A DNA stretch of 64,000 nucleotides, from contig JAEUUZ010000041.1 of assembly GCA_016786765.1 (NCBI GenBank), forward strand, positions 1 to 64,000, given 5' to 3'. The DNA comes from Chitinophagales bacterium. Lineage in GTDB: Bacteria; Bacteroidota; Bacteroidia; Chitinophagales; LD1. Under the pieces are notes generated by a model. It did not search any database. It worked only from the letters and a program-made list of their open reading frames with translations, and had not been told where the DNA came from. The number at the start of each line of letters is the position of its first letter. Within the stretch, counting starts at the first letter, position 1. Of this stretch, positions 180 through 15,011 are shown piece by piece. Made by a program: the position numbers and the translations under genes.

Positions 180-290
180 ATGAACCGCACTGCCCGCGTG
201 CGGGATGGCAGTGGAAATCCTTTGGCCGTTCCCATGGACAAAGATTGCAACGAACAGCCCGATAACACGCCCAAATCATAAATCAAAAAA
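180..290. repeat. GC-rich non-coding segment with nested inverted repeats
   Basis: This segment is clearly richer in G+C than the flanking DNA. It contains ACTGCC (189-194) paired with GGCAGT (207-212), and inside this CCCGC-GT-GCGGG (193-204), so two alternative hairpins overlap. No convincing coding frame crosses it. It looks like an imported or dispersed non-coding element, but only one copy lies in the window, so repeat status is an inference. Confidence 0.3.
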
Positions 291-400: not shown

Positions 401-1540
401 ATGATGAAACTGGGAATTTTAGGAGGCGGACAATTAGGAAGAATGCTATTGCAAGCAGCCGGAAATTATACGCTGGAAACGTTTGTGTTGGAAAACGATA
501 CCACCTGCCCGGCTGCCCATCTCTGTCACCATTTCACATTGGGCGATATTCGCGATTTTGATACGGTTTACGCATTTGGTAAACAAGTAGATGTGCTGAC
601 GATTGAAATTGAAAACATCAACATTGATGCGCTGTTTCAATTGCAAAAAGAAGGCGTAAAGGTAATACCATCGCCTGAAGCCATTGCTATTATTAAAGAT
701 AAGGGCATACAAAAACAGTTTTATGCCGATCACCATATTCCTACTGCACCATTTGTTTTGACGGATAATAAAACAGCTATTGAGGCAAATGTAGATTTTC
801 TGCCGGCTGCCAATAAGCTACGCACCGGAGGCTACGATGGCAAGGGAGTTGAGTTATTATTTGGTGCTAACGATTTACCACGTGCGTTTGTTGAGCCTTC
901 GTTGCTCGAAAAAATGGTGGACATTAAAAAAGAAATTGCGGTGCTTGTTGGGGTTGGCATCGATGGTGCAACCGTGGTATACGAACCTACCGAAATGGTC
1001 TTCGACCCAAAATTGAATTTGGTGGATTATTTAATTGCTCCGGCCGATATCACCTCCGAACAAATTAAAACAGCGGAAACCATTGCACTGCATGCGGTAA
1101 AAGCCTTACAATCGCCTGGTTTGTTTGCCGTGGAGCTATTTTTATCTGCCAACGATGAAATAGTAGTAAATGAAATTGCACCGCGGGCGCACAATAGCGG
1201 ACATCAAACCATTGAAGGTAATTTGATTTCGCAATACGATATGCAATTGCGTATTTTTCAAGAACTGCCGCTTGGATTGCCTACAAACAGAGGCTTTTCG
1301 GCCATGTATAATTTGATTGGCGAGGCCGGATCGCAAGGACATACGATTTACCAAGGCTTAGATAAAGCATTAGCTATGGAAGGTGTGTTCGTGCATCAAT
1401 ACGGGAAATCCACTACAAAACCCGGACGAAAAATGGGGCATGTAACGATAGTAGAAAATGATAAAGCTTCGTTGCTCGAAAAATTATCAATGGTCAAGCG
1501 CCAAATTCATGTTATTGGAGACAAAACTATTGCGCTTTAA
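401..1540 (+). CDS. purK: N5-carboxyaminoimidazole ribonucleotide synthase PurK
   Basis: Cytoplasmic ATP-grasp enzyme of purine synthesis; it converts AIR, bicarbonate and ATP to N5-CAIR. The 379-residue length fits the family. The N-terminal fold carries GILGGGQLGRML (residues 5-16). The ATP-grasp part includes the lysine segment around residues 140-150. The active-site block VVNEIAPRAHNSGHQTIEG near residue 255 is the PurK signature. Two ATGs stand in tandem at 401 and 404, and either could start translation. The partner purE lies about 640 bases downstream on the same strand, separated by a gene on the other strand. The last 54 bases overlap the 3' end of that convergent gene. Identity is secure. 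Confidence 0.96.
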   Translation: MMKLGILGGGQLGRMLLQAAGNYTLETFVLENDTTCPAAHLCHHFTLGDIRDFDTVYAFGKQVDVLTIEIENINIDALFQLQKEGVKVIPSPEAIAIIKDKGIQKQFYADHHIPTAPFVLTDNKTAIEANVDFLPAANKLRTGGYDGKGVELLFGANDLPRAFVEPSLLEKMVDIKKEIAVLVGVGIDGATVVYEPTEMVFDPKLNLVDYLIAPADITSEQIKTAETIALHAVKALQSPGLFAVELFLSANDEIVVNEIAPRAHNSGHQTIEGNLISQYDMQLRIFQELPLGLPTNRGFSAMYNLIGEAGSQGHTIYQGLDKALAMEGVFVHQYGKSTTKPGRKMGHVTIVENDKASLLEKLSMVKRQIHVIGDKTIAL

Positions 1541-2041
1541 GCTGGTTAAGAGTTGCATTTGATCGTTTGTTGAGGTAAGCATGGTGCTTGTGCCGTCAGA
1601 GAAAATAATTTCAATATCGCTTATCGGCCGCGAAGATTTCAAATTCACCAATTGTAAATTCACCACATTAATGTTCACATACAGTTTGTGTGGAATCATT
1701 TTAAAATCGAGCGCTAAACCCATTTCCTGCTCTTGAATCTTTTTTAGACTATCGATGTCGGCCAACTCGTTTTTGTTTTCGTACAAAATTTCGTTATCGA
1801 TGTTCACCACTTTTTTAATATGTTCTGTGGGAATACGAACGGTGCAGCCCGGCTTAATACCATCAGTTTGCCATTGTTTATTATAGGCTATAAGTTTTGC
1901 AAATGGAACATGAAAACGCTCGGCAATTTCCTTTACTTTTTCCCCATCTTTTAATTGATAGGCCACATACACTTCGGAAGGCAACGCCTGTATTAATGAA
2001 ATACTGCCGATAAGGACAAAAAAGAGTAATGATTTTTTCAT
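1487..2041 (-). CDS. secreted LysM-domain protein
   Basis: The 184-residue product starts with a signal peptide (about residues 1-19, MKKSLLFFVLIGS...). A LysM-like module follows at residues 27-72 (YQLKDGEKVKEIAERFH ... CTVRIP), which in this family binds peptidoglycan glycan strands. The C-terminal 110 residues match no family I recognise; they are rich in Val, Asn and Ser and may form a beta domain. The start at 2041 places the signal peptide exactly at the N-terminus. The gene sits between purK and purE on the opposite strand and overlaps purK tail-to-tail by 54 bases. A role in envelope maintenance is an inference from the LysM domain. Confidence 0.75.
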   Translation of the reverse strand: MKKSLLFFVLIGSISLIQALPSEVYVAYQLKDGEKVKEIAERFHVPFAKLIAYNKQWQTDGIKPGCTVRIPTEHIKKVVNIDNEILYENKNELADIDSLKKIQEQEMGLALDFKMIPHKLYVNINVVNLQLVNLKSSRPISDIEIIFSDGTSTMLTSTNDQMQLLTSLKRNSFVSNNMNLALDH

Positions 2042-2122
2042 GGGTAGAACAATTTAAGTTCATTAATGCATGGACTAAAAGAAAACAAACCCAAGGTGAT
2101 GAGAATTTCCAATTAGCACATG

Positions 2123-2149
2123 TTGGCTATGTAATGTTTCATATATTTA
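2123..2149 (+). promoter_or_regulatory. candidate promoter for purE
   Basis: TTG (2123-2125), a 16-base spacer and TATATTTA (2142-2149) resemble the Bacteroidota -33/-7 promoter, although the last -7 base is A instead of G. It lies 34 bases before the purE start, as expected since purE is cut off from purK by a minus-strand gene. Confidence 0.35.
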
Positions 2150-2182
2150 CCTACGCATTACAAAAAATATAGTTACGTTATC

Positions 2183-2698
2183 ATGGCACAAATACGAGTA
2201 AGCATAATAATGGGCAGTCAGAGCGATTTGCCGGTAATGGAAGAGGCGGCAGGCATTTTAAACGAGTTAGGCGTTGATTATGAACTCACTATAGTGAGTG
2301 CGCATAGAACACCTATCCGTTTGGTAGAATTTGCGAAAACAGCTAAAGCCCGTGGCATAAAAGTGATTATTGCCGGAGCCGGTGGGGCAGCTCACCTTCC
2401 GGGTATGATTGCTTCGATAACGGAGTTGCCGGTGATTGGTGTGCCGGTGAAATCGAGTAATTCGATAGACGGTTGGGATTCAATTTTGTCTATTTTGCAA
2501 ATGCCTGCAGGTGTTCCGGTAGCTACAGTGGCTTTGAATGGTGCGAAAAATGCGGGTATTTTAGCCGCTCAAATCATTGGCACCTCCGATGAAACAGTAT
2601 CAACAAAGATAGCGGCATATAAAACGGAACTGGCTACTAAGGTTGACGAATCCGTTACTGCGCTAAAAGGCAAGTATCCGAATACCTTCGATCTATAA
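2183..2698 (+). CDS. purE: N5-CAIR mutase PurE
   Basis: Class I PurE converts N5-CAIR to CAIR in the cytoplasm, the step after PurK. The 171-residue length is typical. Motifs visible are [14 protein letters not shown] (residues 10-23), SAHRTP (residues 40-45) with the catalytic His, [12 protein letters not shown] (residues 66-77), and the substrate loop around [14 protein letters not shown]. The ATG start follows a candidate promoter. Its stop is five bases from the stop of the convergent bshB1 gene. Confidence 0.97.
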
Positions 2699-2703
2699 CT
2701 GCT

Positions 2704-3429
2704 TTATATCAACGAAAACAAATTATTTACCCCAATCAACTTATTGGCGGTAAATCCTTCGGCATAACGCACACCAATGGGTACACCAAAGTTAGACGCG
2801 CGGGCCTTTACAAATTCTAAAAATTCGGGCGAAGAGATAAAGGTGTTTTTTTCCGTTGAATTGGGGTCGAAAAATTGCGAAGCATAGGCATAAATCGATT
2901 CCATTTTCTTATCCATATACGCAGAGATATCTACGGCAAAATCGGCTTTTGCATCTAAAGATTGAATGTAATGATACAAAGCTTTAGGTCGATGGGCTAC
3001 TTGCTCCTCTCCTTCCCATTGTGTTTGAACTTTAGGCAAGCCGGCAAGAAATGCAGCATCGCGAATGAGTTGCGCAGCTCGTCCATGATCGGGATGGCGG
3101 TCGTATACTGCGTTGGCTAAAACGATATCGGGTTGGAAGTGCCGAATGGCTTTGATTAATTCGCGTTGATGCCATTCATCGTTTTGAAAGAACCCATCTT
3201 TGAAGCCTAAATTAATGCGGTGCGCTACGCCTAAAATGGCAGCTGCTGATTTGGCTTCGGCCAAACGGGTAGTTGCATCGCCTCGTGTTCCTAATTCGCC
3301 ATGCGTTAAATCAACAATAGCAGCGGTATATCCTTGTGCAATATGAGCCAGTATTGTTCCTGAACAACTTAACTCTACATCATCGGGATGGGCACCAATG
3401 GCCAAAATATTTACTTTAGTAGATTGCAT
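2704..3429 (-). CDS. bshB1: bacillithiol biosynthesis deacetylase BshB1
   Basis: PIG-L/LmbE family Zn-dependent deacetylase that removes the acetyl group from GlcNAc-malate in bacillithiol synthesis. The zinc motif AIGAHPDDVEL lies at the N-terminus; DLTHGELGTRG, NAVYDRHPDHGRAA and YHYIQS follow, all characteristic of BshB1 rather than generic PIG-L proteins. I prefer the ATG at 3429 (MQSTKVNILAIGAHP). An upstream ATG at 3444 adds five residues and would overlap the preceding gene by 11 bases. The gene is probably cotranscribed with the DUF1569 gene in front of it. BshA and BshC are not in this window. Confidence 0.9.
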   Translation of the reverse strand: MQSTKVNILAIGAHPDDVELSCSGTILAHIAQGYTAAIVDLTHGELGTRGDATTRLAEAKSAAAILGVAHRINLGFKDGFFQNDEWHQRELIKAIRHFQPDIVLANAVYDRHPDHGRAAQLIRDAAFLAGLPKVQTQWEGEEQVAHRPKALYHYIQSLDAKADFAVDISAYMDKKMESIYAYASQFFDPNSTEKNTFISSPEFLEFVKARASNFGVPIGVRYAEGFTANKLIGVNNLFSLI

Positions 3430-3433
3430 AGTA

Positions 3434-3889
3434 TTAAACGCCAAATTGTTTTAGATGATGGTGGATATGCTTAGTGAGCAAATCGGCCCATTGTGTTTTG
3501 GTTAACGGTCCAAACATAGGGTGGGGATGAAACTTATTCGGTTCGCGTTCTGCAAATACATCGAGCATCTTCAGCAAAAACGAAAGTTCAGTATAAAAAT
3601 CTTTTGGCGAAGAGCCTTCTTGAGATGCAATCATTTCGGGCGCTGTTGGATTACCCTTAGGCCAAAACGGCATTATGTATACAGCAACAGGAAACATTAT
3701 TTTCTGTGTAAAAAAATTTGATTTATCTACAGCAGATTTCATACCCATACTTATGCGGACAGCATCATTTAAGTGCGCCAACATTTCATTGACCGTCATT
3801 ACACCCCATTGCCCATTGCTATTTTCGTTCAATTGCTCCAATCGATGGACAAATTGAGCTTTAACGGCTTCGTTTAAGATATTTTCCAT
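3434..3889 (-). CDS. DUF1569 / DinB-like four-helix protein
   Basis: A 151-residue soluble protein of the DinB/DUF1569 type, a four-helix bundle that often binds a divalent metal through spaced histidines. Visible are MTVNEMLAHLNDAVRISMG (about residues 31-49), the Met/Phe-rich middle segment, and the C-terminal HIHHHLKQFGV, which with His39 could form the metal site. Family members are often thiol-dependent; lying directly upstream of bshB1 suggests a bacillithiol-linked role, but that is inference. Its exact reaction is unknown. Confidence 0.75.
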   Translation of the reverse strand: MENILNEAVKAQFVHRLEQLNENSNGQWGVMTVNEMLAHLNDAVRISMGMKSAVDKSNFFTQKIMFPVAVYIMPFWPKGNPTAPEMIASQEGSSPKDFYTELSFLLKMLDVFAEREPNKFHPHPMFGPLTKTQWADLLTKHIHHHLKQFGV

Positions 3890-4015
3890 GCGCGTATTTT
3901 AATCAACAAGGAACTGCAGTTGTTTTTCAAGCACTAAAAATGGCTTATTTTTTACGCAAAACAGAATAATTATAAGCAGGAAATAAAAAGTTTAAAGATT
4001 TTTAAAAACAAAAGT

Positions 4016-4045
4016 TTGTATTTTCAATTGATGCGAATATATTTG
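4016..4045 (+). promoter_or_regulatory. promoter of the tRNA-Gly/tRNA-Leu unit
   Basis: TTG (4016-4018), 19 bases, then TATATTTG (4038-4045) is a full match to the Bacteroidota -33/-7 consensus. It ends 43 bases before tRNA-Gly, leaving room for a short leader. Confidence 0.7.
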
Positions 4046-4088
4046 CCGTCCAATCGCTGAATAAAAGGCGGTTTGTTCTTTTAATCAT

Positions 4089-4161
4089 GCGGGAGTAGCT
4101 CAGTTGGTAGAGCGCCACCTTGCCAAGGTGGAGGTCGCGGGTTCGAGCCTCGTCTCCCGCT
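4089..4161 (+). tRNA. tRNA-Gly (GCC)
   Basis: A regular cloverleaf of 73 bases. The acceptor stem GCGGGAG pairs with CTCCCGC. The anticodon arm CACCT-TGCCAAG-GTG has anticodon GCC in the loop TTGCCAA. The T-arm holds GTTCGAG. The discriminator base is T and CCA is not encoded. It is first in a two-tRNA unit behind a consensus promoter. Confidence 0.97.
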
Positions 4162-4168
4162 CAAACAT

Positions 4169-4201
4169 AAAAGGTGTGTGAGCGATCTTGCACACCTTTT
4201 T
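4169..4201 (+). terminator. hairpin between the two tRNA genes
   Basis: AAAAGGTGTG (4169-4178) pairs with CACACCTTTT (4191-4200) and is followed by one more T. It is probably a partial terminator or processing hairpin, because tRNA-Leu follows without an obvious promoter. Confidence 0.55.
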
Positions 4202-4217
4202 GATTAAAAACAGTGTC

Positions 4218-4303
4218 ACCCGGGTGGTGGAACTGGTAGACACGCAGGACTTAAAATCCTGTGACACTTAAATGTCGTGCGGGTTCGATTCCCGCCCCGG
4301 GTA
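4218..4303 (+). tRNA. tRNA-Leu (TAA)
   Basis: A class II tRNA of 86 bases. The acceptor ACCCGGG pairs with CCCGGGT, with discriminator A. The anticodon loop CTTAAAA has TAA, and the long variable arm TGACACTTAAATGTCG is typical of leucine tRNAs. CCA is not encoded. Its normal class II form contrasts with the class I Leu-type tRNA at 14628. Confidence 0.96.
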
Positions 4304-4306
4304 CAT

Positions 4307-4338
4307 AAAAAAGGCTTCAGGAAACTGGAGCCTTTTTT
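4307..4338 (+). terminator. terminator of the tRNA unit
   Basis: GGCTTCAG pairs with CTGGAGCC around a GAAA tetraloop, flanked by six A and six T. It can act in both directions and ends the Gly-Leu tRNA transcript. Confidence 0.8.
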
Positions 4339-4392
4339 AGTTTAATGTATCCTAAAACAAGCTCCCTAAACAACAATACTTTGCTAATACAC

Positions 4393-4426
4393 AAAAAAAA
4401 GAGCCACACAATAGTGCGACTCTTTT
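4393..4426 (-). terminator. terminator of the giant T9SS gene
   Basis: AAAAGAG and CTCTTTT enclose an inner CAC/GTG stem. On the minus strand the hairpin is followed by eight T, just past the stop of the 2416-residue gene. Confidence 0.7.
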
Positions 4427-4448
4427 GTATTACTTATCTCTGTTGCTA

Positions 4449-7400
4449 TTATTCAGCAATAGTGATTTTTCTGTATGTAGTTTTACCGTTCGCTTTTACG
4501 TTTACAATGTAAACGCCTTTCGCTACTGTGGTCAAATCTAATTCTGTTTTCATCTGGCCATTACTCATTTGGAAATCGCCTGTGTAAACAATTTCGCCAA
4601 TTACATTATGACAAGTAATTTGAACATCTGATGCTTTATCATTCGAAACTAAAACAGTGAATTTACCGTTGTTTGGATTCGGATAAACGGAGCAATCGAA
4701 TGCAGTGCCATCGATATCTTCAATACCGGTAACAATACCGTTGAATACATCCGATGTGTTTTTACAACCATTTGCATCTGTTACTTGAACTGTATATGGT
4801 CCTGATTGTGTAATGGTATATTGTTTACTTGTTGCTCCACTAATGGTAGATGCATTCAACGACCATTGGTATGCTGATGCCGTTACACTACATGTAAGTA
4901 CATTGCCTGCCTGTGTTATTACAGGTTTTGTAGGCAATGGATTCACTGTAAGATTAAGTGTAATAACACTATCGCAACCTGTAGCAGAGGTAAGCGTATC
5001 TTTGTATGTTCCCGCAGCAGTCAGTGTTTGACCATTAAACGTGAACGAAGAGCCTTGACAGATACTTTGGTTAAGCGTAGTAGCTTTAGTGCTATTTACC
5101 ACTAATGTTAACGTTACAACACTATCGCAACCGTTAGCAGATGCAAGTGTATCTTTGTATGTACCTGCGGTATTTAATGTAGCTCCATTGAAGCTAAATG
5201 TTTCATTAGAGCAGATAGTTTGTGTAAATGCGCCTGTTGCGGTTGGTAACACATTCAAGGTAAGCGTTACTACTGAATCACAACCATTAGCTGCTTGAAG
5301 TGTATCAAGATAGTTTCCGGCAGTATTTAACGTAGCACCATTAAATGTAAAGGTTTCATTCGCACAAATCGTTTGTGTAAATGCGCCTGTTGCTGTTGGC
5401 AATACATTCAATGTTAATGTAACAACTGAATCGCAACCGTTAGCTGCTGATAAAGTATCTAAATAAGTACCTGCAGTATTTAAATCAACTCCGTTGAATG
5501 TAAACACTTCATTCGCACAAATCGTTTGTGTGAATGCACCTGTTGCCGTTGGCAATACATTCAATGTTAATGTAACAACTGAATCGCAACCGTTCGCTGC
5601 TGATAAGGTATCTAAGTAAGTACCTGCGGTATTTAAATCAACGCCATTGAAGTTGAATACTTCATTCGCACAAATGGTTTGTGTAAATGCGCCTGTTGCG
5701 GTTGGTAATACATTCAAAGTAAGCGTTACTACTGAATCGCAACCGTTCGCTGCTGATAAAGTATCTAAATAAGTACCTGCAGTATTTAAATCAACTCCGT
5801 TGAATGTATATACTTCGTTCGCACAAATCGTTTGTGTGAATGCGCCTGTGGCGGTTGGCAATACATTCAAGTATAATGTTACAAATGAATCGCAACCAAA
5901 TGTAGATGTTAATGTATCAACGTATGCTCCAGGTGTATTCAAATCAACTCCGTTGAAGGTATACACTTCATTCGCACATATCGTTTGTGTGAATGAGCCG
6001 GTATCTGGGAAGGTTAATACCTGAACTGTATCGGAAGCAAAACAACCTGTATTGTTGTTGGTTACTTTGAAAACATATGTAGTGGCACTTGTAGGAGAAG
6101 CAATAGCCGTTAATGAATCGGCATTTGTAACGCCTCCGGATGGCGTCCATGAATACGTGTAATTAGGTGAAGTTACGAATGTTATGTTTGGTCGCTGGTT
6201 GAACGATGCAGTTGTGATTGTATTTGGACACACCGTAGCTGCATCTTCTCTATAGTAAATAGTTGATGCGTATGATGTTGCCGTTTGTTTAAACACTCCA
6301 TTCGCTGTAAACGATGCGTTGTTGAAACAAGTTTGTACAACAATGTTAGACACGCCATCCCAGTTGAAAGGAGTTGTGAATGTATGGAGGTTCGAACCCG
6401 CTCTAGGAATAAAAGTAGCAGCAGGAGAAACAACAGTAAAACTACCGGTAACAAAAGCAGATAGACTTGTTACTGAAGTTGGTGCCATTTGAATTTCGAA
6501 ACCGGTTAAAGGAACAGCATTCGTAGATATTAATTCAAAAACAAGTCCGTTGATGTTACCCGGAGCAACTCCGGCAGCAGCTAATTCTGAAGCACTAATC
6601 AAGATTTGATGTTTAGCGCCCCAATACCAGTTACCGTATGGTGCAGGGTATGTTGATGTAGTATTTTGAAGTGAACCAGTATCAATTACAAAATCGTTTA
6701 CAACAGAACCATTTAGAGAAACAGGTGTACCAGGACAAACTATTGATGCAGCTGATGCAGAAACTATTGGAAGTGGATTTACCAAAACAGTAACGTTTCC
6801 ACTCGTTTGACAGCCTGTAATTGAATCGTTTGCAGATACCGTATATACAGTAGAAAGAGTAGGTGTTGCTGTTACACTTGCTCCTGTTGCTGCAGATAAA
6901 GAAGCTGAAGGAGACCAAGTATATACATAATCAGGATTTGAGCTAGTAGCGTTAATTACAGTTGAATTACCTGAACAAAGAGATGGAGAAACTGCAGTTA
7001 ATGTTACAGCAGGAGCTGCAGTAACAGTTACCGGAACGGCTACACGCTGACTTTCGCAACCGGTACTAATCACAAAGTTGTACAAGTAGTATTGATAAAT
7101 TAAAGTGCTAGCCGGTGAAGTACCGAATGAAGCCCCTTGAATATTAAAGTAACCGGGTAAAGTATAAGGGTAAGGGAAGTTAGTTACGTTACCTCTCCAA
7201 GTATTAGGATTATTAGAGAATCCAATGACATAATTTGTTCCGGCAGGAATTACAAAATTAACCGGTACCGTTTGAGCAACAGTTGGTGTTCCTGTATTTT
7301 GAACAGTAGTTACACCACTATAAGATGCAACCAAGGTACCTGTTCCACTCGATTGTCGAACTTCAATAGTAAATGGAGTACCGATAGTTGCACTAGGATA

Positions 7401-10400
7401 CATATCAATTGTAGCTATAGTAACATTTTGCAAAGCATCAAACACCATTGACGCACCTGTAATGGTAGTAGTTTGGAAGCTTCCCACTGAAGTGTATTGG
7501 TTCCAAGTATTACCTCCTGGTACTGTTGTATTTTGAGCTCCAGAACCAGAAGCAGCTACATAATACGTTGTAGAGTTAGTTACAGTTGGGGTGTAATAAT
7601 AACCAGTATCTAACGATACACCACCTGAAGATGCTGCATACCAATTTAAAGTACCGTTACCTGAAGCAGATAAAGTAACCTGTCCAGGACCGCAACGGGT
7701 AACAGGAGATGCTGTAGGAACATCAACAAACTCAGCTTTAATAGTAACAATGTTTGATGGGTTTCCACAAACCAAAGCACGATAGAATGTTGTATCAATA
7801 GGAGTAACTACAGGTGTTGCAGTCGTTGCTCCGGCTACATTGGTCCAAGTACCTGAGGTATCTGCCGTTTCTTGCCATTGGATTGTTGCACCACTTGGAG
7901 CACCAACCAGCGACAATGTTGTTGAATTATATGCACAGATAGTATTTGTTGTTCCTGAAGCTGTACCCGTATTGTAACTAATAGTAGTTGATGGCATAAC
8001 ATCATTAGATGTTGCTCCGTCCCCTGCAACAACCGCTGAAGCAGTAAAAACATAATTACCAAGGGCAGACATATTATACGCAGTAGAAAAAGTAACTGTA
8101 GTTGTTGCTCCACCTGCTAATGAATCTGTACTTAACACTACATCCGTAAATGCAGTAGGATTTGGACCAGAAACCGAACAAGTAACGGTAACTGGATTTA
8201 CAGCAAAATTAATTGTTTGTGTACTGTAATTTTTGATCGTTACACGAACGGTATCAGCAGCAGATTTACAACCAGAATTTAATGGTAGAGCTAAAGATGC
8301 AGCGCCCATATCTAAAGTAACAGGAATTCCATCGAATTCATCTGCTCCCATATCAGGAAAAGTACCACCTCCGTTTACAGAACCTGAAGGACCCGGACGA
8401 TTTTGTCCATCGATATCTGTTGAAATTCCTGCAACAACAACAGCTTTAGACTCTAAAGATGAAGTAGTAGCATTATTGATATGAAGATTAGTAGAAGAAA
8501 TAAAGTTTGGATTAACAGTTGCAGAAGAAGCATCTAGAGTTGTTCCGGCTTTCCATGTTGCCAGAGAATTGTATGGAGTAGCCCCTACAACACCTGCTTG
8601 CCAACCTGTTCCATTCCCCCAGATATCGTTATTATCTGAAGTAAATGTAGTAGTTGCATTCAATCCATAAGAATTGTGAGTAGCCGTACCTGCCGCAGCA
8701 TTAGAACGTGTATTCACAAACACGTTGTTTTTTACAACATCAACAGCCGTTCCCGTTCTGCGGAAAGCATATGTATTAGCTGTACCGGCTGCAACACCTT
8801 TACCTGCTATATGAATGGAGTTGAAATAAAAACTATTATCAGTTGTAGCTGATTTTAAGATTCCATTATATTCCTGTGCTGCAGTTATCGAATCACCTAA
8901 AGCATCCAAACCTAACACAATCATGTTATTATAGTAAGTAGATGTTCCACCAATAGCAGCGATACCATTAATAACAACAGCAGCTGTATTTAAAGGAGCA
9001 CTGATAGCAGAAATAGTATTATTGAACACCTTATGAATATTAGATGTGCCTGGTGAAGCAACGATTCCTGCCATAGAAATTGCTCCCGTTCCTGAACCAC
9101 TACTTAATTTGTTGATAGTATTATTAGATACCGTTTGAACACCCGCTGTTGTAGAAGAAAGAGAGATACCGATTACGGATGAGGTAAGTCCGCTTCCGTT
9201 CTCCGGTGATAAATTGGATAGATTTTTAATGGTATTGCCATTAATGGTATTGATACCGCTCGATGCAAATACACCTCTTGTTAATCCGCTCGTTGATGTA
9301 CCGGAATAACGGTTAGTTACGTTTTGTATAGTGTTATTGCTGATTGTATTTGTTAAACTAGAGGAACACTGAATTCCTGTAATCAAACCACCTGTAGTTC
9401 CGGTTGAAGCAGCAGTAAGCATGTTGTCGGCAACAGTAGTACTACCAATAGTATTTCCTGTAATGGTGTTGTTACCACCCGAACTAGTAATACCTATACA
9501 TGATGTAGAAATAGTTGGAGTTGAACCTGCAATAGCAAATCCCCCAACAGTATTATTCGTAATAGCTACGTTACCGGATGCCGAGTTTGATATCCCCACT
9601 ATAGCACCTCCTGTTGTAGATGTAGTAGCAACAATAGCATTATTAGCCGTTGAGCTTCCAACAGTGTTACCATTTACAGTAACATTACCACCTGTACCTG
9701 ATGTAGATACTCCTATAACTATCCCAGCTGTTGAACCGCTTGATGTTGTTAGATTGATGTTTTGTATTGTATTATTTTGAACTAATGAAGTAGTTCCTGC
9801 ACTCGCTAAGTTTAAGTTGATACCAAAGAAACGAGTAGCAATTGTACCGGTCATGGTCATAGCGGTTCCCCCACACAATGGAGCAGTTCCTCCTATGGAG
9901 TTGCCGGTAATTGTATATCCGGTTCCGGTTGCAGAACTTATTAAAATACCATCGTGGATATTAGCCGTTGTATACGTACGTGTTGAAGTTTGGAATATGC
10001 TGTTGTTTGTAATTGTCCAACCGCTGTTACCTGCATCGGTACGAATAGCAGAACTTATAACTGTAGCATTAAAAAAGTTATACAAGTTACAATTTGTAAC
10101 AGTAGTTCTATTAAATGCACCACCCGAAGTTGAATTCAAAGAGTATATCAGGTTAGCCGGAGTTGTTAACCCATCATAAATATTACAATCTGTAATTACG
10201 TTGTCAAGAGCACCTAAACCATTTGTTAAGGATGAGCCAAAAGTAATTACACCTGAAGAAGATGTATTATTCACCCCTTTAACGGTTAAATACTTAAGTG
10301 TATTGTAAGAGGCATCATTAAAAAACAAAGCAGCCGATCCCGACAATGCAGTATTCTCTAACGTCAACTCAGAGGTTGTGCCTAGCCCGGCAGGTCTACC

Positions 10401-12219: not shown

Positions 12220-12270
12220 AAAAAGTGATAGAAATGACCCCGCCTAAGCAGGGCCTTTCAATCACTTTTT
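12220..12270 (-). terminator. strong terminator closing the tRNA-array/rtcB island
   Basis: A perfect 10-bp outer stem, AAAAAGTGAT (12220-12229) with ATCACTTTTT (12261-12270), encloses an inner stem of GAAA/TTTC and G/C-rich bases. The minus strand has five T after the stem. It overlaps the stop codon of the short ORF at 12262. It is the first strong terminator downstream of rtcB on that strand. Confidence 0.75.
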
Positions 12271-12408
12271 GGTTGGAGTGAAGATTTGCTTCAATTGATC
12301 AATCACTTGATTATTGCCAGTTACAGAAATACTGTTGATTTTCTCTGCAATTCTTTCCAATAACTTCTTTAGGGCAGATTTTGAGTCTGCGCTTGTTGCT
12401 ATACCCAC
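12262..12408 (-). CDS. possible 48-residue helical peptide
   Basis: A GTG at 12408 opens 48 codons ending in TGA. The first residues are VGIATSADSKSALKKLL, and the rest is amphipathic and helix-prone. The stop lies inside the terminator stem, as is often seen for real 3' ends. Against it: there is no ATG, only a weak purine-rich stretch upstream, and the same DNA contains a GCAGA-CTCAAAA-TCTGC stem-loop (12374-12390) that looks like a tRNA anticodon arm. Coding and RNA readings compete. Confidence 0.3.
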   Translation of the reverse strand: MGIATSADSKSALKKLLERIAEKINSISVTGNNQVIDQLKQIFTPTKK

Positions 12409-12582
12409 TTAGCTGCTGGTCCTCAAACAGATGGGACTCGAACCCATGACACACAAGTCGGTAAATCTATATGACGATATATCCATCAATACGTTGACGA
12501 TACCCGGTGGCTATACAGAAACTACATCTGTCATTTCGATTACCATCCTCCTCGCGGAGGAAAAGTTTACCGTTTCCGGTTA
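12374..12582 (-). ncRNA. unidentified structured RNA region with tRNA-like arms
   Basis: Read on the minus strand, this stretch has a run of perfect hairpins: ACCG-GAAA-CGGT (12569-12580), TCCTCC-GCGA-GGAGGA (12546-12561), CGTCAA-CGTA-TTGATG with one G-U pair (12484-12499), and TATAT-CGTC-ATATA (12468-12481). Next come a canonical tRNA T-arm, ATGGG-TTCGAGT-CCCAT (12431-12447), and an anticodon-like arm (12374-12390). Two loops are GNRA tetraloops. The T-arm comes before the anticodon-like arm and no matching acceptor strand was found, so it is not a normal tRNA. It could be an RNA domain of the island, a tRNA relic, or an attachment-site scar. I do not recognise the family. Confidence 0.4.
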
Positions 12583-12690
12583 AAATTTGATGATTACCCA
12601 ATGTTCGTTTTCCTCACCACTTACACCATTTGGTTTTGGAGGTACTTGAGGCATTGGGCCTGCATTTTGATTTGTTATATTTGTTTTCAT
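12580..12690 (-). CDS. 36-residue ORF directly after rtcB
   Basis: The ATG at 12690 lies 48 bases past the rtcB stop. The product begins MKTNITNQNAGPMPQ, has a Pro-rich middle (VPPKPNG) and ends HWVIIKF. No signal peptide or membrane segment is visible. Its spacing suggests cotranslation from the rtcB message. Its start resembles that of the 35-residue ORF at 15357 (MKT...TNQN). It could be a real microprotein or chance; I do not recognise it. Confidence 0.4.
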   Translation of the reverse strand: MKTNITNQNAGPMPQVPPKPNGVSGEENEHWVIIKF

Positions 12691-12738: not shown

Positions 12739-14205
12739 TTACCCGTCCATCTTTACAATTTTTGGGTGAAATACACCAACGATATTGACTAACTCTGTTT
12801 GTGCATTCATTACCGCATGAATATCCTTGTAAGCATGAGGTGCTTCATCTAAACCTCCACCAATCAGTTTCACACCATGTGTTTTCAATTCGCTTTTCAT
12901 GGCTTCATGCGTAATGCTTTGCATAGCTTTCGAACGACTCATTTTTCGACCCGCTCCGTGCGATGCAGAATTCACTGCACCTTCAACACCTAAGCCTTCA
13001 ACGATGAATCCTGGAGCAGTCATAGAGCCAGGGATAATCCCCAAAACTCCTTTCCCTGCAGGTGTTGCACCTTTTCGATGAACAATCACTTCGCGCTCAT
13101 TCCACATTTCTTTCCACGCAAAATTGTGATGGTTCTCTACCCGAGCAATTGGCTTTTCACCAAATGCTTTCGCTAATTTTTTGTGAATGATTTGATGACA
13201 AGCCGAAGCATAATCACCGGCCAGATTCATGGCTAACCAATATTCAATCCCTTCTTGTGAATTCAAATCCAACCATGCTAAGTGCTTCGCTTCACCCGGT
13301 AGTTTTGTTTTCTCCATGGCTATTCGTGTATAGTGTCCGGCTATGGAAGCACCCATTCCACGAGATCCTGAATGCGACAACAAAGCCACATATTTTCCCG
13401 GAGGAATGTTCAATGCATTTTGTGCTGAGGCTATATCCACCACACCCCACTCTACAAAGTGATTTCCGGAACCCGATGATCCTAATTGTCGAGCGGCCTT
13501 TGCTTGTAGCCCTTTCACAAATGGAATTTCGTCAAACACTTTATGGTCGAGCACTTCATGAGATGCCATTTGTTTGAATTCTCGTCCACCTCCAAACAAA
13601 GTGTGTTCACTTAATTCACGCTCGAAGAATTTATCTCTGTTTTTTAATTCTCCAGCATCAACATTAAAGACACTCAAACACATTCTACATCCGATGTCAA
13701 CACCAACTCCATACGGAATCACAGCATTATCGGTGGCTAACACTCCACCAATTGGCAAGCCATACCCTTGGTGTGCATCGGGCATCAATGCCCCTGCTAC
13801 AGCAATTGGAAGTTTTGCGGCAATATGCATTTGATTCAATGCTCCTCCCTCAATGTGTTCCATACCATAGGTATTAAACGCAATTCCTTTGGGATTTAAT
13901 TCGAATAACGAACCGGTTAAACTGTTTAAGTATGCTTTCAAATCTACATCCGAGAGTGTTGCATATTTTTCACGCAACTCGCTTTTTCTTTTTTCTTCCA
14001 ACAAGCTTTTCGCTATGGGTTCCAAAAGTTCATCTTCCAAAAATGCAGTAGGATTCACCAAAATTGCTTTTAGTATATCGAGTGCATCTTCATGCGAAGT
14101 ATGCTTGAAGTTTTTCTCCATGGTAGTCATAGCAAGGCTGATAACAGGGCTTTCGGGATATCCGATAGCGCGTAGTTCTTTTCCTTTTAATTTTAACTTT
14201 GCCAT
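12739..14205 (-). CDS. rtcB: RNA-splicing ligase RtcB
   Basis: GTP- and Mn-dependent ligase joining RNA 3'-phosphate or 2',3'-cyclic phosphate ends to 5'-OH ends, used in tRNA repair or splicing. At 488 residues it is full length. Motifs in order: PDAHQGYGLPIGGV (about 142-155), GVDIGCRM with the metal-binding Cys (166-173), GSSGSGNHFVEWG, LLSHSGSRGMGA, ENHHNFAW, HRKGATPAGKG and PGSMTAPGF. Near the C-terminus SASHGAGRKMSR carries the guanylylated-histidine block, then GGGLDEAPHAYKDI. No key residue appears lost. Its ATG is 22 bases after tRNA-Tyr, the last of eight tRNA genes on the same strand, so the array and rtcB are probably one transcript. No archease or rtcA is nearby. Confidence 0.97.
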   Translation of the reverse strand: MAKLKLKGKELRAIGYPESPVISLAMTTMEKNFKHTSHEDALDILKAILVNPTAFLEDELLEPIAKSLLEEKRKSELREKYATLSDVDLKAYLNSLTGSLFELNPKGIAFNTYGMEHIEGGALNQMHIAAKLPIAVAGALMPDAHQGYGLPIGGVLATDNAVIPYGVGVDIGCRMCLSVFNVDAGELKNRDKFFERELSEHTLFGGGREFKQMASHEVLDHKVFDEIPFVKGLQAKAARQLGSSGSGNHFVEWGVVDIASAQNALNIPPGKYVALLSHSGSRGMGASIAGHYTRIAMEKTKLPGEAKHLAWLDLNSQEGIEYWLAMNLAGDYASACHQIIHKKLAKAFGEKPIARVENHHNFAWKEMWNEREVIVHRKGATPAGKGVLGIIPGSMTAPGFIVEGLGVEGAVNSASHGAGRKMSRSKAMQSITHEAMKSELKTHGVKLIGGGLDEAPHAYKDIHAVMNAQTELVNIVGVFHPKIVKMDG

Positions 14206-14227
14206 TGTTTTTGTTTTTAATTTTTAG

Positions 14228-14308
14228 TGAGCGTAATAGGATTCGAACCTATTCAGCAATGCAATGGTTTTACAGACCATCCCAGCTCTCCATCGCTGGC
14301 GCACGCTC
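14228..14308 (-). tRNA. tRNA-Tyr (GTA), array position 8
   Basis: A class II tRNA of 81 bases. Acceptor GAGCGTG pairs with TACGCTC (last pair G-U), discriminator A. The D-stem CCAGC/GCTGG is strong. The anticodon stem ATGGT/ACCAT holds loop CTGTAAA with GTA. An 11-base variable region is followed by T-arm ATAGG/CCTAT. No CCA is encoded. It is the array member nearest rtcB. Confidence 0.93.
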
Positions 14309-14310
14309 AT

Positions 14311-14382
14311 GGGTGAAGACGAGAATTGAACTCGTGTCTCAGCATTCACAATGCCGTATGTTGCCATTACACTAGCTTCACC
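14311..14382 (-). tRNA. tRNA-His (GTG), array position 7
   Basis: Acceptor GGTGAAG pairs with CTTCACC, followed by C. The anticodon stem CGGCA/TGCTG has one G-U pair and loop TTGTGAA with GTG. The T-arm is ACGAG-TTCAATT-CTCGT. One extra base seems to separate acceptor and D-arm, so which G serves as the extra 5' G typical of tRNA-His is unclear. Only two bases separate it from tRNA-Tyr. Confidence 0.88.
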
Positions 14383-14388
14383 ATTTTG

Positions 14389-14460
14389 TGGACAGCAATG
14401 GAATCGAACCATTACGCGTGGTGCTTCAAACCACTGCTCTACCATTGGAGCTACCTGTCC
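14389..14460 (-). tRNA. tRNA-Phe (GAA), array position 6
   Basis: Acceptor GGACAGG faces GCTGTCC, leaving a G-G mismatch at the innermost pair; discriminator A. D-arm GCTC/GAGC, anticodon stem GTGGT/ACCAC and loop TTGAAGC with GAA. G after the anticodon and C at the loop end are unusual for tRNA-Phe, which normally has A37. T-arm AATGG/CCATT. No CCA. Confidence 0.88.
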
Positions 14461-14468
14461 TTTTTTTG

Positions 14469-14540
14469 CGGGAGAAGAATGGATCGAACATTCGACATTG
14501 TGCTTAACAGGCAAACGCTCTGCCACTGAGCTACTCTCCC
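14469..14540 (-). tRNA. tRNA-Asn (GTT), array position 5
   Basis: Acceptor GGGAGAG pairs with TTCTCCC (innermost G-U), discriminator G. D-arm GCTC/GAGC. The anticodon stem TTTGC/GCACA contains one T-C mismatch and carries loop CTGTTAA with GTT. T-arm GAATG/CATTC. No CCA. Confidence 0.9.
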
Positions 14541-14546
14541 AAAATG

Positions 14547-14618
14547 TTGTCCCGGTTGGGTTCGAACCAACGCAACCCTCATTAAAAGTGAGGTGCTCTA
14601 CCACTGAGCTACGAAACA
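14547..14618 (-). tRNA. tRNA-Lys (TTT), array position 4
   Basis: Acceptor TGTTTCG pairs with CGGGACA, with a first pair T-A and two adjacent G-U pairs, weaker than is usual for tRNA-Lys. Discriminator A. D-arm GCTC/GAGC, anticodon stem CCTCA/TGAGG, loop CTTTTAA with TTT. T-arm GTTGG/CCAAC. No CCA. Confidence 0.9.
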
Positions 14619-14627
14619 TTATTTTGG

Positions 14628-14701
14628 TTGACCCGGAGCGATTCGAACGCTCACATGAATAAGTTCTAAGCTTATCTCCTCTTCCGTTGGGATACGGGCC
14701 A
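14628..14701 (-). tRNA. class I tRNA with TAG anticodon (reads Leu CUA), array position 3
   Basis: Acceptor TGGCCCG pairs with CGGGTCA (one G-U), discriminator A. The D-stem has three pairs, TCC/GGA. Anticodon stem ATAAG/CTTAT, loop CTTAGAA with TAG. T-arm GAGCG/CGCTC. The variable region is only six bases, TCATGT, whereas bacterial leucine tRNAs normally have a long arm, as the one at 4218 does. The anticodon decodes CUA, so Leu is the formal assignment; charging cannot be told from sequence. Confidence 0.85.
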
Positions 14702-14715
14702 TTATACTATTTTAG

Positions 14716-14788
14716 TTGGCGGAGTTGGATTCGAACCAACACAAATCAGAGTCAAAGTCTGATGCCCTACCGGTTAGGCGACCCGCCA
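14716..14788 (-). tRNA. tRNA-Gln (TTG), array position 2
   Basis: Acceptor TGGCGGG pairs with TCCGCCA (innermost G-U), with the weak first pair T-A usual for tRNA-Gln; discriminator A where G is more usual. D-stem GCC/GGC. Anticodon stem TCAGA/TCTGA and loop CTTTGAC with TTG. T-arm GTTGG/CCAAC. No CCA. Confidence 0.92.
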
Positions 14789-14852
14789 ATATTTGTTGCG
14801 AATCGTCTTGTTGTTTAGTATTGACTGTTTTCATTTTTTTCTTTTTGCTTTG

Positions 14853-14924
14853 TATGAGAGACAGGATTCGAACCTGTACCTTCTCGGTCCCAAACCGAGT
14901 GAACTAGCCATTGTTCATTCCCAT
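14853..14924 (-). tRNA. tRNA-Pro (TGG), array position 1
   Basis: Acceptor ATGGGAA faces CTCTCAT, with one G-U and an A-C mismatch at the innermost pair; discriminator A. The anticodon stem CTCGG/CCGAG is strong, with loop TTTGGGA and anticodon TGG. T-arm ACAGG/CCTGT. The acceptor does not resemble usual bacterial tRNA-Pro (C1-G72). It is the first gene of the array. Confidence 0.88.
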
Positions 14925-14958
14925 ATATTTTCTTGTTTACTTTCTTTCCGAGAAATAA

Positions 14959-14992
14959 AAAAGCCCGACTCGTTGAAACAAGTCGGGCTTTT
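14959..14992. terminator. terminator upstream of the tRNA array
   Basis: AAAAGCCCGACT and AGTCGGGCTTTT pair perfectly over 12 bases around a 10-base loop, with T-runs in both directions. It closes the short leftward ORF at 15012, so the tRNA array needs its own promoter in the roughly 30 bases that follow, or depends on read-through. I found no consensus promoter there. Confidence 0.8.
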
Positions 14993-15011
14993 CGCGCTGA
15001 AGTACATTCCT

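Follow-up and report, generated by a model that had tools for sequence, protein, structure and literature searches.

The eight tRNA genes described here directly precede rtcB on the same strand and belong to what is left of a larger operon. With about evenly balanced confidence, we consider this unit to be a reduced RtcB RNA-repair operon with its own tRNA set, acting in the response to tRNA damage. The direct support comes from the anatomy of the locus, homology, recurrence, the conservation of tRNA structure, the partner genes present in relatives, and the loss of these partners in the window (the whole analysed stretch of 64,000 nucleotides).

Organization of the tRNA Array and rtcB

The tRNA genes were located with ARAGORN and Infernal. 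They follow one another head to tail on the minus strand, from 14924 to 14227, in the order Pro-TGG (14852–14924), Gln-TTG (14715–14788), Leu-TAG (14625–14701), Lys-TTT (14546–14618), Asn-GTT (14468–14540), Phe-GAA (14388–14460), His-GTG (14311–14382), and Tyr-GTA (14227–14308), followed by rtcB. When the stretch was searched alone, all eight scored above the Rfam threshold (34.9–66.9 bits), with tRNA-Tyr at 34.9 bits. Neighbouring genes are 2–63 nt apart, and both programs reproduced the head-to-tail order with short gaps given in the original prediction. The same prediction described the genes as devoid of an encoded CCA; this is correct for seven of the eight, but Leu-TAG does encode CCA. 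Splicing of intron-containing tRNAs by RtcB was considered and rejected for the window: its eight genes are uninterrupted, and the intergenic gaps are all short.

The rtcB gene (12739–14205, minus strand) is intact and encodes a full-length RNA 3'-phosphate/5'-OH ligase of 488 aa. Its ATG is located 21–22 nt from the end of tRNA-Tyr, in agreement with the distance of about 22 bases noted originally. The A-rich leader between them is too short to leave room for a terminator, and none was found there or within the array. The block is therefore free of internal terminators, as had been stated; however, a terminator-like hairpin with a T tract (14958–14993, minus strand) is located 33 nt upstream of tRNA-Pro. 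This strong hairpin represents either the end of an upstream unit or an attenuator, and because of it the promoter of the array is left unsettled.

The 3.62-Mb genome contains a single copy of rtcB. Its product matches PF01139 with an E-value of 1e-81, and when aligned to PH1602 (1uc2) it keeps the D..C, GNHF, H(T/S)GSRG, RKGAT, PGSM, and HGAGR motifs. Having both the domain and the metal and guanylylation motifs, the protein belongs to the RtcB RNA ligase family; among the NCBIfam equivalogs, none reached its cut-off.

In the window, the reduced operon comprises the array, rtcB, a Y-like RNA, and a slipin relic, with a downstream limit at about 12268. The limits proposed before, 12739–14924, cover the array and rtcB but leave out this downstream part. 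The Y-like RNA, the slipin relic, the class I tRNA-Leu, and the altered anticodon loops all go beyond what had been noted on this DNA.

Redundancy and Structure of the Array tRNAs

The whole genome yields 40 tRNA matches, and every anticodon of the array (8/8) also has a housekeeping gene elsewhere, a redundancy of the kind that characterizes the Anabaena tRNA cluster. The identity between array and housekeeping copies is 53–81%; it is highest for tRNA-Lys (81%), and for Pro-TGG it is 67%. The array did not arise by recent duplication. In array Pro, Lys, Asn, and Tyr, the anticodon loop is that of the housekeeping tRNA, while the loops of Gln, His, Leu, and Phe differ, so that the change of the anticodon loop is not general across the array. 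The Gln loop is CTTTGAC, with A37 instead of the housekeeping G37, and the Phe loop is TTGAAGC (G37, C38) instead of CTGAAAA. One stem mismatch each is present in the Phe, Asn, and Pro tRNAs of the window.

The array tRNA-Phe was found in 22 of the 26 array loci examined. In an alignment of 20 distinct sequences, 98.6% of the cells are paired and compensatory changes occur in 16 of the 21 pairs, which is strong comparative evidence of selection on the cloverleaf. Structural constraint of this kind supports the view that the array tRNAs would be functional. The housekeeping Phe loop is CTGAAAA in 30 of 30 genomes; the array Phe departs from it at 21 of the 22 loci, with G37 at 17 of them. A37 of tRNA is the site of the ms2i6A37 modification, which involves MiaA, and this modification should be lost in array tRNA-Phe carrying G37. 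A lineage-specific Phe type is found in the rtcB arrays of several families.

Normally, tRNA-Leu is a class II tRNA (PMC7609411). The Leu-TAG of the array is of class I, its long variable arm being missing, and its nearest relatives are class I Leu tRNAs in other rtcB arrays. Four Leu anticodons (CAG, TAA, CAA, and GAG) are carried by the class I body in the L147 and L148 loci.

Partner Genes and the Y-like RNA

The arrays of relatives are flanked on one or both sides by genes of RtcB repair operons. A Ro60/TROVE gene is located upstream, on the strand of the array operon, in L068, L069, L241, L242, L247, L249, and L250; a slipin/Band-7 (Band_7) gene is located upstream in L070, L079, L240, and L244–L246; RlaP and a divergent WYL regulator are also found beside arrays. 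It is these partners, together with the Y-like RNA, that place the array in RtcB RNA-repair operons and favour a module for repair or stress recovery, the latter having been suggested originally.

The Y-like RNA of the window (12389–12460, minus strand) is of the YrlA type. Its elements follow the order outer stem, T arm, short stem, and D arm, which corresponds to a circularly permuted tRNA-like fold. The RF02553 model matches it across 12372–12469 with 40.4 bits (E 1.6e-7), under the gathering score of 69, whereas R1, a lineage covariance model built with the window sequence left out, gives 55.9 bits (E 2e-16) and places its best match in the genome here. An alignment of ten such RNAs has 95.5% of its cells paired, and 15 of the 20 pairs are changed on both sides. 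Junctions between neighbouring tRNAs also score with R1 (about 17–47 bits, up to 46.9), and weak R1 matches are therefore to be discounted. A tRNA-junction artefact was rejected for the Y-like RNA in view of its R1 score and of the outer stem that it has in common with RNAs of array-less Pedobacter operons. Folding the single sequence by minimum free energy gave no useful information (z −0.27), and a regular-expression scan for permuted tRNA-like RNAs returned almost nothing, so the covariance model was used instead.

The Rfam YrlA model also matches RNAs embedded in the arrays of relatives, as well as RNAs upstream of slipin in the array-less Pedobacter operons. In many Bacteroidota, slipin, a permuted tRNA-like RNA, and RtcB are found in one operon. 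The window thus has a YrlA-type Y RNA next to rtcB, as in the rsr-yrl-rtcBA operon, with a score below the Rfam gathering score; it also has a tRNA-like RNA within the operon, as in the slipin–RtcB module, and this RNA is common to the Pedobacter slipin operons and the window.

A search of the genome with the L070 slipin revealed one place only, 12366–12268, directly after the Y-like RNA. The relic found there (12268–12360, minus strand) consists of only the last 31 codons, and its residues are 58% identical to the C-terminus of the L240 slipin (E 6.7e-9 in 5.85 kb). Slipin is intact in relatives but not in the window, Ro60 (TROVE, Rsr) is absent from the whole genome, and neither RtcA nor RtcR was seen among the neighbour genes examined at the locus. 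The operon has partly decayed, slipin being reduced to a relic and Ro60 having disappeared, and the decay could extend to the unit as a whole.

Recurrence, History, and Origin of the Array

An even sample of 396 Bacteroidia genomes was surveyed, and RtcB of the window's type was found in 66 of them. When tRNAs were counted within 3.5 kb of rtcB, at least two same-strand tRNAs were detected in 13 of the 66 genomes, belonging to 6 of 26 families; the number 13 is a lower bound, as the flanks are just 1.2–3 kb at many survey loci. The majority of loci with this RtcB type lack an array. Further arrays were found in the window's own family, in Chitinophagaceae, and in two IMG/VR contigs. If about 40 tRNAs in 3.6 Mb are assumed, the chance that a given gene has two or more tRNAs on its own strand within 3.5 kb is about 2e-4; this value and the recurrence in many genomes exclude adjacency of the array and rtcB by chance. 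Across all fetched loci, which are partly redundant, 328 tRNAs near RtcB are on the same strand and 3 are on the opposite one. The array and rtcB make up a recurrent unit on one strand, and the arrangement is not confined to this one assembly, so that the condition which would have refuted the original prediction does not hold.

On the RtcB tree of 158 proteins (fasttree, with some long branches), the array label changes 13 times, compared with 22.8 changes when the labels are shuffled, and at least 10 of the 13 changes are forced by well-supported branches. The array trait is clustered on the tree, yet on this phylogeny it has been gained or lost many times. Array order is shared within the window's family. 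In L250, it is Ala-Ile-Glu-Pro-Gln-Leu-Lys-Arg-Asp-Asn-Thr-Phe-His-Tyr-rtcB, and all eight window tRNAs form a colinear subset of the L250, L068, and L249 arrays. Because of this colinearity, the window array is best regarded as belonging, in eroded form, to a chromosomal lineage. It contains eight tRNAs, compared with 14–15 in close relatives and 20 in L126, and it is smaller than a tRNA array unit, which comprises at least 20 clustered tRNA genes.

The original prediction pointed to phages and mobile elements as the usual carriers of such arrays. Such an origin was not borne out for the window: when phage and plasmid collections were queried with the array, nothing but short generic tRNA matches came back and no near source emerged, no phage genes adjoin it, and it is colinear with related chromosomes. 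Phage RtcBs are less than 60% identical to the window RtcB, with 34–39% for the best among the matches listed. None of the phage rtcB genes examined directly adjoins a tRNA array, and the plasmid RtcBs L289–L293 have no tRNAs nearby. The L147 locus, from a viral-contig collection, has an array, rtcB, and a phage portal gene, which was seen there only. As neither DNA nor protein comparisons revealed a near source, a phage origin of the array was rejected.

Proposed Function and Alternative Explanations

Most likely, the array provides cleavage-resistant replacement tRNAs that would be made together with a tRNA-resealing ligase. We infer co-transcription, induction, cleavage resistance, a replacement role, and a scaffold role, and the course of events would be as follows. 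Stress or tRNA-cutting toxins would switch the array–rtcB unit on. RNase P and 3' processing enzymes would cut the transcript at the tRNA ends, freeing the eight tRNAs, and the same processing would free the rtcB mRNA with its 21-nt A-rich leader. RtcB would then reseal cut tRNAs bearing 2',3'-cyclic phosphate and 5'-OH ends, while the array tRNAs, which share their anticodons with the housekeeping set but have remodelled bodies and, in part, remodelled loops around the anticodon, would replace those that cannot be mended. Differing where nucleases read them, they may be poorer nuclease targets. In relatives, the Y-like RNA with Ro60 or slipin could serve as a scaffold; in the window, where only a piece of slipin is left and Ro60 is missing, the array plus RtcB would remain. 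Points against this reading are the housekeeping-type loops of four array tRNAs, the lack of an array at most loci with this RtcB type, the terminator-like hairpin close ahead of the array, and the partial decay of the operon together with the stem mismatches.

A wider interpretation, which is tentative and somewhat doubtful as a whole, is that the arrays constitute a second set of tRNAs, cellular in origin and used under stress only, and also the source of the YrlA-type permuted tRNA-like domain; they would have been rewired to escape recognition by tRNA-cutting enzymes and, in part, by the modification enzymes of the host. Its basis is the tRNA-Phe without A37 and the tRNA-Leu without a long variable arm, the T-arm, stem, D-arm order formed by the 3' half of one tRNA and the 5' half of the next, and the scores of tandem tRNA junctions with the Y-RNA model.

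Possibly, the array tRNAs are instead sacrificial, their fragments reporting damage to a regulator or the tRNAs soaking up the nuclease, with RtcB restoring them. In Salmonella, tRNA fragments are the signal for the rtc operon, and YrlA was proposed as a possible competitive inhibitor of a nuclease (PMC7790460); the unchanged loops of four array tRNAs (Pro, Lys, Asn, and Tyr) and the Y-like tRNA mimics in the same operons would also be compatible with this. Nevertheless, we find it unlikely, since the full cloverleaf constraint, intact anticodons, and many isoacceptors suggest translation, up to 20 anticodons would be needless for a decoy, and relatives have WYL regulators rather than the RtcR-type sensor, which was not seen at the locus. 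It is quite improbable that the main role of the array is that of a 5' leader, the processing of its tRNAs releasing the rtcB mRNA so that ligase output tracks the processing state. The 3' maturation of a tRNA so close to the rtcB start, such as the Tyr at 21–22 nt in the window or the His at 23 nt in G304, would define the 5' end of the mRNA; however, in other genomes 0.1–2.8 kb and other genes separate the array from rtcB, and in G078/L126 rtcB precedes the array.

Little credence is given to ordinary extra tRNA copies, which would serve codon supply and stand before rtcB by happenstance. All eight anticodons do duplicate housekeeping genes, and tRNA gene clusters are common, but the bodies have strongly diverged, the lineage-specific Phe type recurs in the rtcB arrays of several families, and the tRNAs are on the rtcB strand with few exceptions. 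The view of the locus as a phage or mobile-element relic without present host function seems very doubtful as well. Phages carry tRNA arrays, RtcB, and Band-7 genes (PMC7824862), the viral-contig locus L147 combines an array and rtcB with a portal gene, and the window operon has lost slipin and Ro60; against this stand the low identity of phage RtcBs, the lack of a near phage or plasmid match to the array, its colinearity within a chromosomal lineage, its structural constraint, and the intact RtcB.

Comparison with Known Systems

RtcB operons with Y RNAs and Ro60 are already known. The tRNA-like RNA in Band-7-linked RtcB operons is reportedly known too from Burroughs & Aravind 2016, who are said to have described SPFH/Band-7 (slipin)–RtcB modules in which each operon holds a single tRNA-like molecule and not arrays of real tRNAs. 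The operons considered here resemble those modules in combining slipin, a permuted tRNA-like RNA, and RtcB, of which the RNA and a slipin relic are left in the window beside RtcB. In the literature covered, to which Burroughs & Aravind 2016 did not belong, multi-isoacceptor tRNA arrays in RtcB repair operons were not found described.

The Salmonella rsr-yrlBA-rtcBA operon is induced by damaged tRNAs (PMC7790460). It is similar in having an RtcB ligase and a YrlA-type Y RNA, and the relatives of the window have Ro60 too. It differs in that the window operon holds a multi-isoacceptor tRNA array, the window genome has no Ro60, WYL regulators occur in relatives, and RtcA and RtcR were unseen at the locus.

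In Anabaena (PMC10272220), a redundant tRNA operon (trn) and rtcB are both repressed by TrcR; translation inhibitors induce trn, which favours survival in their presence, and rtcB is upregulated together with it under chloramphenicol. The clustered tRNAs of trn (PMC10272220; Santamaria-Gomez 2021 cited there) are likewise redundant with the housekeeping set. However, they number 26 and are on a plasmid, rtcB is elsewhere on the chromosome, and no linkage to Ro60, slipin, or a Y RNA is mentioned in the passages covered.

The tRNA array units found in mycobacteria and in their phages and plasmids (PMC5966550, PMC12803027) are also dense, redundant, and diverged from housekeeping copies, but they have at least 20 tRNAs, HNH endonucleases are reported nearby, and RtcB is unmentioned in these two papers. 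Phage tRNAs have been proposed to escape tRNases through changes in the anticodon loop (PMC10264068), and T4 and jumbo phages combine altered-loop replacement tRNAs with RNA ligases (PMC10264068, PMC7824862). These systems are viral and not chromosomal, and rtcB and array lack the direct junction in the phages examined. By analogy, the Salmonella, Anabaena, and phage systems would agree with a response to tRNA damage.

Significance

The question addressed by these findings is why phages and some bacteria keep redundant and odd tRNA arrays. The repeated joining of an array to an RNA-repair ligase on ordinary bacterial chromosomes, in company with a tRNA-mimic RNA and either Ro60 or slipin, would tie the arrays to tRNA damage. 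This idea is testable in cultured species, for example, Flavisolibacter and Paraflavitalea, and the class I Leu tRNAs and the Phe tRNAs lacking A37 are concrete molecules for questions of nuclease resistance and charging. The arrangement shared by the related bacteria suggests a reserve tRNA set that may be held for attacks which cut the normal tRNAs.

Features of the tRNA Arrays

Some tRNAs of the rtcB arrays, 73-77 nt in length, carry leucine anticodons yet lack the long variable arm. Such tRNAs were found in the window (14625-14701) and at the RtcB-encoding loci L067, L126, L247, L249, L250, and L147 (4159-4670), and they form one coherent lineage within these arrays. At L147, a single tRNA body of this kind is common to four Leu anticodons.

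Another feature is tRNA-Ile with the anticodon UAU, which is present in the arrays of L073, L093, L126, L202, and L250; this anticodon is absent from the housekeeping tRNA set of the window genome. The array tRNA-Ile(UAU) would allow AUA decoding without lysidine.

Neighbourhood of the rtcB Genes

In the L147 contig, derived from a viral collection, an array of 19 tRNAs (1370-4746), rtcB (6001-7395), and a lambda-type phage portal gene (8195-9796) lie in a row; possibly, this is a prophage carrying the tRNA array-rtcB module. An AAA ATPase, uncharacterised and roughly 356 aa long, repeatedly adjoins the RtcB type of the window, whether the array is present or not (L067, 7035-8105; L070, 3819-4889; also L073, L079, and many Chitinophaga loci). 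In the Aureibacter plasmid pAT2 (L290), a related RtcB gene is directly followed by prfH, encoding peptide chain release factor H; the RtcB-PrfH pairing is already known.

The window also contains a Flavo-1 sRNA (188-268, plus strand; RF01705, 54 bits), typical for Bacteroidota, and a putative 36-aa ORF (12580-12690, minus strand) between rtcB and the Y-like RNA.

tRNA Junctions and the Y-like RNA

Tandem tRNA junctions, in the window (14428-14657) and elsewhere, combine the T arm of one tRNA gene with the D arm of the next one. They resemble the permuted Y-like RNA (window 12389-12460) and also yield hits with its covariance model, which hints at a route by which such tRNA mimics may have arisen.
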